In this document: positions 50,655 to 53,095 of the stretch, piece by piece | How the letters are laid out: each line of letters starts with the position of its first letter | Numbering within the stretch: the stretch's first letter is position 1 | Assembly (NCBI GenBank): GCA_000708525.1 | Contig: JMRP01000001.1 | Coordinates: forward strand, 248,001 to 312,000 | Length of the DNA stretch: 64,000 nucleotides | Direction: 5' to 3' | DNA from: Cyanobium sp. CACIAM 14 | GTDB taxonomy: Bacteria; Cyanobacteriota; Cyanobacteriia; PCC-6307; Cyanobiaceae | Made by a program: the position numbers and the translations under genes | Notes under the pieces: model-generated | What the model saw: the letters and a program-made list of their open reading frames with translations, nothing else | Database searches by the model: none | Told to the model about the DNA's origin: nothing

Positions 50655-51593
50655 ATGTTCATCAGCGTCGTCATCCCCACGTACAACCGCCTGCCGATCC
50701 TGCGGCAGTGCCTGCAGGCCCTGGAACGGCAGGACGTTGCGGCACCGCTGGAGGCCTACGAGGTGGTGCTGGTGGACGACGGCTCCACCGACGACACGGT
50801 GCGCTGGCTGGACGCCCATGCCACCGCCTTTCCCCATGTCCGGCTGATCCGTCAGGAGCACGGCGGACCCGCGCAGGGGCGCAACCGCGGCGTCGAGGAG
50901 GCCCGGGGGGACGTGATCGTCTTCATCGACAGCGACCTGGTGGTGACCTCCCGATTCCTGCTGCACCACGCCACCACCCTGCGCCGGGCCTGGCAGCAGG
51001 CGGGTGATCGGCTCTGCTTCACCTACGGGGCGGTGATCAACACCCACAACTTCGAGGATCCGACCTCCGAACCCCACAAGCTGCGCGACCTGTCCTGGGC
51101 CTACTTCGCCACCGGCAACGTGGCGATCGACCGAGGGGTGCTGGAGGCGTCCGGTCTGTTCGACACCGGCTTCCGGCTCTACGGGTGGGAGGACCTGGAG
51201 CTGGGGGAGCGGTTGCGCCGCATGGGTGTGAAGCTGGTGCGCTGCCCCGAGGCCGTCGGCTACCACTGGCATCCGCCCCTGAGCCTGGAGCAGATTCCCG
51301 ATCTGGTGCGGGTGGAGCGGGAGCGGGCCCGGATGGGGCTGGTGTTCTTCCGCAAGCACCCGACCCGCCGGGTGCGCTTCATCATCCAGTTCACCTGGCT
51401 GCATCTGCTGCTCTGGGAGTTGCTCACCCTCGGCGGTCTGATCAACGAGCGCAGCCTCCGGCCCCTGCTGGGCTGGCTCATCCGCCACGGCAAACCCGGT
51501 CTGGCGATGGAACTGCTGCGACTGCCCCTGAACCGGTTCGGCGTCCGCACCCTCCATGCCGAAGCCCGTCAGCAGGCCCATTTGTTAAGTTGA
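50655..51593 (+). CDS. family 2 glycosyltransferase
   Basis: MFISVVIPTYNRLPILRQCLQAL...VVLVDDGSTDDTVRWL...GPAQGRNRGVEEARGDVIVFIDSDLVV...TGFRLYGWEDLELGERLRRMG. Confidence 0.92.
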   Translation: MFISVVIPTYNRLPILRQCLQALERQDVAAPLEAYEVVLVDDGSTDDTVRWLDAHATAFPHVRLIRQEHGGPAQGRNRGVEEARGDVIVFIDSDLVVTSRFLLHHATTLRRAWQQAGDRLCFTYGAVINTHNFEDPTSEPHKLRDLSWAYFATGNVAIDRGVLEASGLFDTGFRLYGWEDLELGERLRRMGVKLVRCPEAVGYHWHPPLSLEQIPDLVRVERERARMGLVFFRKHPTRRVRFIIQFTWLHLLLWELLTLGGLINERSLRPLLGWLIRHGKPGLAMELLRLPLNRFGVRTLHAEARQQAHLLS

Positions 51594-51614
51594 TCGGGCA
51601 ACCCCAACACCGCA

Positions 51615-51674
51615 CACCTGCAAGTTTCGGGTGATCCCCCCGGGATCCCTGGCAGGTGGAGGCGAACCCGAAAC
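51615..51674 (+). ncRNA. candidate structured rpsB 5' leader (cis-regulatory RNA, pseudoknot or switch)
   Basis: Stem A CACCTGC 51615-51621 / GCAGGTG 51652-51658; stem B GTTTCGGGT 51624-51632 / ACCCGAAAC 51666-51674; stem C GATCCC 51633-51638 / GGGATC 51642-51647; rpsB ATG at 51687. Confidence 0.65.
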
Positions 51675-51686
51675 CCCACAAACCGA

Positions 51687-52400
51687 ATGGCTGTCGTCAC
51701 TCTCGCCGAGATGATGGAGGCTGGTGCCCACTTCGGACACCAGACCCGTCGCTGGAACCCCAAGATGTCGCGCTACATCTACTGCGCGCGCAACGGGGTC
51801 CACATCATCGACCTCGTGCAGACCGCCGTCTGCATGAACAACGCCTACAAGTGGACCCGCAGCGCCGCGCGCAGCGGCAAGCGCTTTCTGTTCGTCGGCA
51901 CCAAGAAGCAGGCCTCCGAGGTGATCGCGCAGGAGGCCACCCGCTGCGGTGCCGCCTATGTCAACCAGCGCTGGCTGGGCGGAATGCTCACCAACTGGAG
52001 CACCATGCGGGCCCGCATCGACCGGCTCAAGGACCTGGAACGCATGGAGGCCTCCGGGGCCATCGCCATGCGGCCCAAGAAGGAGGCGGCCGTGCTGCGC
52101 CGCGAACTGGATCGTCTGCAGAAGTATCTGGGTGGTCTGAAGAACATGCGCCGCCTGCCGGATGTGGTGGTGCTGGTGGATCAGCGCCGGGAGACCAACG
52201 CGGTGCTCGAATGCCGCAAGCTCGACATCCCGCTCGTGTCGATGCTGGACACCAACTGCGACCCCGACCTCTGCGACGTTCCCATCCCCTGCAATGACGA
52301 CGCGGTGCGTTCGGTGCAGCTGGTGCTCGGCCGTCTTGCGGATGCGATCAACGAAGGCCGCCATGGAGCCCAGGATCAGCGCGGTGACGACGACGCCTGA
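51687..52400 (+). CDS. rpsB: 30S ribosomal protein S2
   Basis: [41 protein letters not shown]...[23 protein letters not shown]. Confidence 0.98.
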
Positions 52401-52435: not shown

Positions 52436-53095
52436 ATGTCTGAGATCACAGCGAAGCTCGTCAAGGACCTGCGCGACAAGACCGGCGCCGGCATGATGGA
52501 TTGCAAGAAGGCCCTCACCGAATCCGGTGGGGACGCCGCCAAGGCCGCCGAGTGGCTGCGCCAGAAGGGCATCGCCTCCGCCGAGAAGAAGGCCGGCCGC
52601 ACCGCCGCCGAAGGAGTCATCGGCAGCTACATCCACACCGGCGCCCGTGTCGGTGTGCTTGTGGAAGTCAACTGCGAGACCGACTTCGTCGCCCGGGGAG
52701 ATCTCTTCCAGGAACTGGTGCGCAACGTGGCGATGCAGATCGCCGCCTGCCCGAACGTGGAGTACGTGAGCACCGACGACATTCCTGCCGAGGTGGCCGA
52801 GCGCGAGAAGGCCATCGAGATGGGGCGCGATGACCTGGCCGGGAAGAAGGCGGAGATGAAGGAGAAGATCGTTGCCGGGCGCATCGGCAAGCGGCTCAAG
52901 GAAATGGCCTTGCTCGACCAGCCCTACATCCGCGACAACAGCGTGACCGTCGGAGAGATGGTGAAGTCGGCCGCCGGCAAGACCGGCGAGAACATCCGCG
53001 TGCGCCGCTTCACTCGGTACACCCTCGGTGAGGGGATCGAGGTGGAGCAGAGCGACTTCGCCGCCGAGGTGGCGGCGATGGGCAAGGCGGCCTGA
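52436..53095 (+). CDS. tsf: elongation factor Ts
   Basis: [57 protein letters not shown]...[18 protein letters not shown]. Confidence 0.98.

Follow-up and report, generated by a model that had tools for sequence, protein, structure and literature searches.

A conserved pseudoknotted leader RNA of rpsB-tsf in Cyanobium, assigned to the rpsB motif as a divergent member

The rpsB motif (RF01815) is known from Proteobacteria, Cyanobacteria and some Firmicutes, where it lies upstream of rpsB or, rarely, of tsf (PMC2704228). It consists of a helix P1, variable P2 and P3 helices, and a pseudoknot formed between the junction J2-3 and the 3' extension that follows P1; in the cyanobacterial representatives, P2 is missing or reduced to a very short helix (Meyer et al. 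2009, PMC2704228). In E. coli, the rpsB leader is reported to be repressed in vivo by ribosomal protein S2 with S1 as a partner, and deletion of a conserved bulge in the leader can abolish this control; the mechanism is described as unclear, and the operator does not include the ribosome-binding site (PMC10931766). The original prediction of a structured rpsB leader in the DNA analysed here suggested that no cyanobacterial equivalent with such a topology had been described. That suggestion proved incorrect, as the published rpsB motif has the same architecture and was reported to include Cyanobacteria. Judged by its sequence and arrangement, the element is a divergent member of this known family and not a new system.

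We analysed a window of 64,000 nt from Cyanobium sp. CACIAM 14 (contig JMRP01000001.1), to which all coordinates refer; all features of the window described below are on the forward (+) strand. An upstream open reading frame stops at 51593 and the rpsB ATG lies at 51687, leaving a leader of 93 nt. The rpsB gene itself, encoding ribosomal protein S2 (51687-52400; PF00318 match, E 1.2e-92), is followed as second gene of the operon by tsf for elongation factor Ts (52436-53095), recognized by its open reading frame and N-terminal sequence. Only three perfect Watson-Crick helices of at least 6 bp exist in the leader, and they are the three complementary pairs that had been predicted. Stem A (7 bp) joins CACCTGC (51615-51621) to GCAGGTG (51652-51658), and stem B (9 bp) joins GTTTCGGGT (51624-51632) to ACCCGAAAC (51666-51674). 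Stem C is a hairpin (51633-51647) in which GATCCC (51633-51638) and GGGATC (51642-51647) enclose a loop at 51639-51641. The positions of the open reading frame and of the arm also bear out the predicted distance of 12 nt between the 3' arm of B and the rpsB ATG.

The loop of A contains the 5' arm of B, and the 3' arm of B follows A, an arrangement in which both stems can be present at once as an H-type pseudoknot that encloses hairpin C. The spacer between A and B comprises only 2 nt (51622-51623), so that stacking of B over its full 9 bp may be incomplete once A has formed. Stem A is extended outwards (51611-51614) by the pairs C51611-G51661 and C51613-G51659, with G51612 opposite A51660 and with A51614 bulged. 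G51659 and G51661 belong to the loop GAGGCGA (51659-51665) that leads from P1 to the 3' arm of the pseudoknot. Between C and the 3' arm of A, the junction J3/1 consists of CCUG (51648-51651), which is complementary to CGGG at 51628-51631 and could compete with B. Beyond the pseudoknot, the C/A-rich region where ribosomes would load (51675-51686) contains no Shine-Dalgarno (SD) sequence.

By comparison with the rpsB motif, stem A is P1, C is P3 and B is the J2-3 pseudoknot. Like the published motif, the window element precedes rpsB and has a long, covarying P1 with a bulged A near its base, no P2, a variable P3, and a pseudoknot that links the 3' extension to the junction of P2 and P3. It further shares with the RF01815 consensus the conserved CACAC, the bulged A, and the GG.GGA and AACC segments. 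Two differences stand out: the pseudoknot has 9 bp in the window as opposed to the 5 bp stated in PMC2704228, and the Cyanobiaceae are without the AGGAG that follows the pseudoknot in the RF01815 consensus and in other cyanobacteria. The E. coli rpsB leader (RF00127, t44) occupies the same position and has a P1 with CACAC; the two leaders have in common the arrangement CACAC...GUGGAGGC.UAACCC, within which the GUGGAGGC and AACCC strings are identical. In contrast, the t44 model has a longer interior hairpin, the pseudoknot falls outside it, and E. coli possesses an SD-like AGAGG near the ATG that has no counterpart in the window.

The Rfam library does not recognize the element at its own thresholds. 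Scanning of the window, which had been proposed along with the original prediction, produced nothing relevant, as RF01815 and RF00127 were unmatched both at the gathering score and at E<=10. Nor did RF01815 exceed its cut-off of 40 bits, a limit that concerns the library model's score and not the structure, in any of 116 genomes of the class, and no genome of the Cyanobiaceae was matched. Searched against these 116 genomes, the model did yield 25 weak matches, 18 of which, including the best 15, lay just upstream of rpsB. To the leader L141 it aligned with all its parts matched, at 22.5 bits against the cut-off of 40. A covariance model that we built from cyanobacterial leaders (R1) matched the entire window element (51609-51675) with 65.7 bits (E 5.6e-15), the only strong match in the genome. 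R1 also recovered the rpsB leader of E. coli K-12 (E 0.011); RF00127 matches the E. coli leader (L183) at 83.5 bits. Another match of R1 (27.1 bits) was an rpsB leader from a genome within the phylum but outside the class (L181:558-636), where only a short possible pseudoknot, GGU/ACC, can be seen.

To compare the leader among cyanobacteria, we used 80 relatives from an S2 protein scan of genome contigs and whole-genome searches that located rpsB in 186 of the 201 Cyanobiaceae genomes. Each of the 179 cyanobacterial loci with a complete leader has the element immediately in front of rpsB-tsf. These comprise 109 from Cyanobiaceae, counting the window (whose own genome copy is L001) and excluding the truncated L101 and L102, and 70 from other families, among which the architecture of L180 was judged by eye. 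With minor changes, the 109 Cyanobiaceae leaders follow the pattern CGCACACCTG..GTTTCGGGTG, a variable hairpin, and then CCTGGCAGGTGGAGGC.AACCCGAAAC. When the 144 distinct leaders were compared (80 from Cyanobiaceae and 64 others), the bulged A corresponding to A51614 was present in 80/80 and 58/64 of them, respectively, and the outer C-G pairing of P1 in 80/80 and 57/64. The five core pairs of B are formed in every one of the 144, and the GG(A/T)GG in the loop 3' of P1 is conserved as well. The distance from GGGT to ACCC ranges from 37 to 157 nt among Cyanobiaceae, and P3 is very variable in length.

Several leaders depart from the common form. That of L121 appears to have an extra hairpin between the 5' arms of P1 and of the pseudoknot, the site of P2 in proteobacterial rpsB motifs; such a hairpin is absent from most cyanobacteria. 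Family f16 (L114, L123, L128, L154, L177, and L178) is without the CRCA and GGAGG segments and has kept P1, and its pseudoknot is compensated as TACGGGT/ACCCGTA. In L144, the strand opposite rpsB carries a glutamine riboswitch (RF01739; 414-470 on the + strand; 43.3 bits, above the cut-off) that lies a few hundred bases upstream of the gene.

Covariation was assessed in sequence-only block alignments and in a full-leader alignment (A2). A joined-block MAFFT alignment (A1) was set aside for its misregistered P1 3' arms, a consequence of the loop being one base shorter in Cyanobiaceae. Within this family, five of the eight P1 pairs show double changes, a result matched by none of 500 shuffles, and over all 144 distinct leaders the paired share of P1 cells is 94%, compared with 26-50% when the arms are slid; compensated versions include CACTTG/CAAGTG (L105) and CACCCGC/GCGGGTG (L009). 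Among 25 diverse full leaders, double changes affect 7/9 P1 pairs and 99.1% of cells are paired. For the pseudoknot, five of nine pairs are doubly changed across the class, with CTTGGGT/ACCCATAG (L147) and the f16 form (seen in L114) as examples from outside the Cyanobiaceae. The pseudoknot is invariant inside the family of the window, and thus covariation there backs P1 and partly P3 only. In P3, five of six pairs are doubly changed across cyanobacteria. Taken over the whole structure, 17 of 24 pairs in the 25 leaders are doubly changed against a shuffled mean of 10.7, a count that is subject to the relatedness of the sequences, whereas the sliding control, which keeps relatedness, gave 90.8% of cells paired in register (P1 99%, pseudoknot 88%, P3 82%) and 34-55% out of it.

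The leader is thus a conserved RNA fold composed of P1, P3, and the pseudoknot. Both A and B covary, A also inside the Cyanobiaceae and B only outside them. Of the two arrangements that had been proposed for A and B, their joint conservation and covariation fit the H-type pseudoknot. The idea that they exclude each other found no support, since the two stems occur side by side in all 80 distinct leaders of the Cyanobiaceae and in nearly all other cyanobacterial leaders. The case for the fold rests on this conservation and covariation and not on nested minimum-energy folding.

The start of transcription appears to lie upstream of the structure. Column conservation among the 109 Cyanobiaceae leaders points to a candidate -10-like promoter block, TTAAGTT (51585-51591), preceded by TTTG; counted from the pseudoknot GGGT, the conserved columns are T/T at -47/-46, T at -38, and G at -31. 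A match to the sigma-70 consensus was not found at this upstream block, nor did the literature searched contain a mapped rpsB transcription start. From the position of the block, we would expect transcripts to begin at about 51596-51599 and so to include the whole structure.

We consider it highly probable that this rpsB motif is a 5' leader by which the rpsB-tsf operon is autoregulated and through which S2 would repress its own translation. Autorepression by S2 is the best explanation in light of the sub-threshold matches of RF01815 to the leaders and of the match of R1 to the S2-regulated leader of E. coli. Points against it are the invariance of the pseudoknot within the Cyanobiaceae, the failure of RF01815 to match any of their genomes, and the situation in E. 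coli, with its unclear mechanism and a ribosome-binding site beyond the operator. The rpsB mRNA would start a little upstream of 51609, and P1 with its bulged A, P3, and the pseudoknot would adopt next to the start codon the compact fold that covariation supports. By homology, S2 present in excess of free 30S subunits should bind this fold, perhaps together with S1 as reported for E. coli; S2 also helps S1 to dock on the ribosome. Bound S2 would stabilize the pseudoknot and block the loading of ribosomes on rpsB, hence on tsf too, and the levels of S2 and EF-Ts would presumably be lowered together. When no free S2 is available, the knot would open easily and translation would go on. A pseudoknot next to the start codon of the E. 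coli rpsO mRNA is stabilized by a ribosomal protein, S15. The parallel with rpsB is an analogy only, for the protein, the sequence, and the topology all differ.

The Cyanobiaceae differ from other cyanobacteria in what follows the pseudoknot. An SD core located 11-20 nt before the rpsB ATG occurs in none of their 109 leaders but in all 69 leaders scored elsewhere, and their loading region is composed of 54% C, 32% A, and only 2% G. The loss of SD is not peculiar to rpsB, a notion that we rejected because tsf in Cyanobiaceae is also without it (105/105); outside the family, tsf has an SD in 14 of 24 cases. The GGAGG at 51658-51662 is unlikely to work as an SD, being 24 nt away from the ATG and conserved even where a proper SD follows. 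These features of the lineage, the missing SD and the conserved CCUG, look new.

In the Cyanobiaceae alone, the leader might possibly act as a bistable switch in which pairing of CCUG with CGGG extends P3 and holds the pseudoknot open with translation on, while S2 would favour the pseudoknot and turn translation off; we regard this as a minority prospect. Indeed, all four CCUG-CGGG pairs are possible in 73/80 distinct Cyanobiaceae as opposed to 1/64 other leaders. Nested minimum-energy folding conceals the pseudoknot 5' arm in 72/80 of the Cyanobiaceae leaders, with the 3' arm staying free in 57/80. The rough energies of the two states are close (median difference -0.7 kcal/mol), but this balance is weak evidence as the pseudoknot penalty is a rough constant. 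Moreover, the CCUG and CGGG positions hardly vary and therefore provide no covariation, and a change of U50 to A stands uncompensated in five distinct sequences. Somewhat more doubtful still is the evolutionary proposal that the leader in Cyanobiaceae (Prochlorococcus, marine Synechococcus, and Cyanobium) became an SD-independent bistable switch, with a lineage-specific CCUG capturing the pseudoknot 5' arm to hold a C/A-rich start region open and S2 tipping the balance towards the pseudoknot. If true, S2 would govern initiation on an mRNA devoid of a Shine-Dalgarno sequence.

An element that does not sense S2 at all, and instead promotes translation constitutively or stabilizes the mRNA by keeping the start region open and shielding the 5' end, is improbable in our view. 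It would suit the C/A-rich, G-poor loading region by the start codon, which stays open, and the absence of an SD from Cyanobiaceae. Yet the conservation of unpaired letters throughout the class, namely the bulged A, GGAGG, and AACCC, as well as homology with the E. coli leader that S2 regulates, points to recognition by a protein.

In 2000 dinucleotide-preserving shuffles of the leader, one stem of at least 9 bp occurred in 54 and two stems of at least 7 bp in 98, and none contained an H-type pseudoknot with stems of 7 and 9 bp. The nested folding energy of the leader is not unusual (z = -0.14), because a GC-rich sequence folds well regardless and the pseudoknot is not scored. Chance complementarity or a DNA-level feature (an operator or terminator) would agree with this ordinary energy but can safely be rejected given the shuffles, the failure to find a terminator-like site, and above all the covariation with its U-G intermediates, which refutes it.

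In conclusion, our analysis extends by covariation to all sampled cyanobacteria a ribosomal-protein feedback RNA on which experiments have been conducted mainly in E. coli and its relatives. This extension covers the dominant picocyanobacteria of the ocean, which Rfam has missed, and R1 would allow the element to be annotated across the phylum. Furthermore, the natural loss of the SD beside an unchanged operator offers a useful test of S2 repression on a non-SD mRNA.
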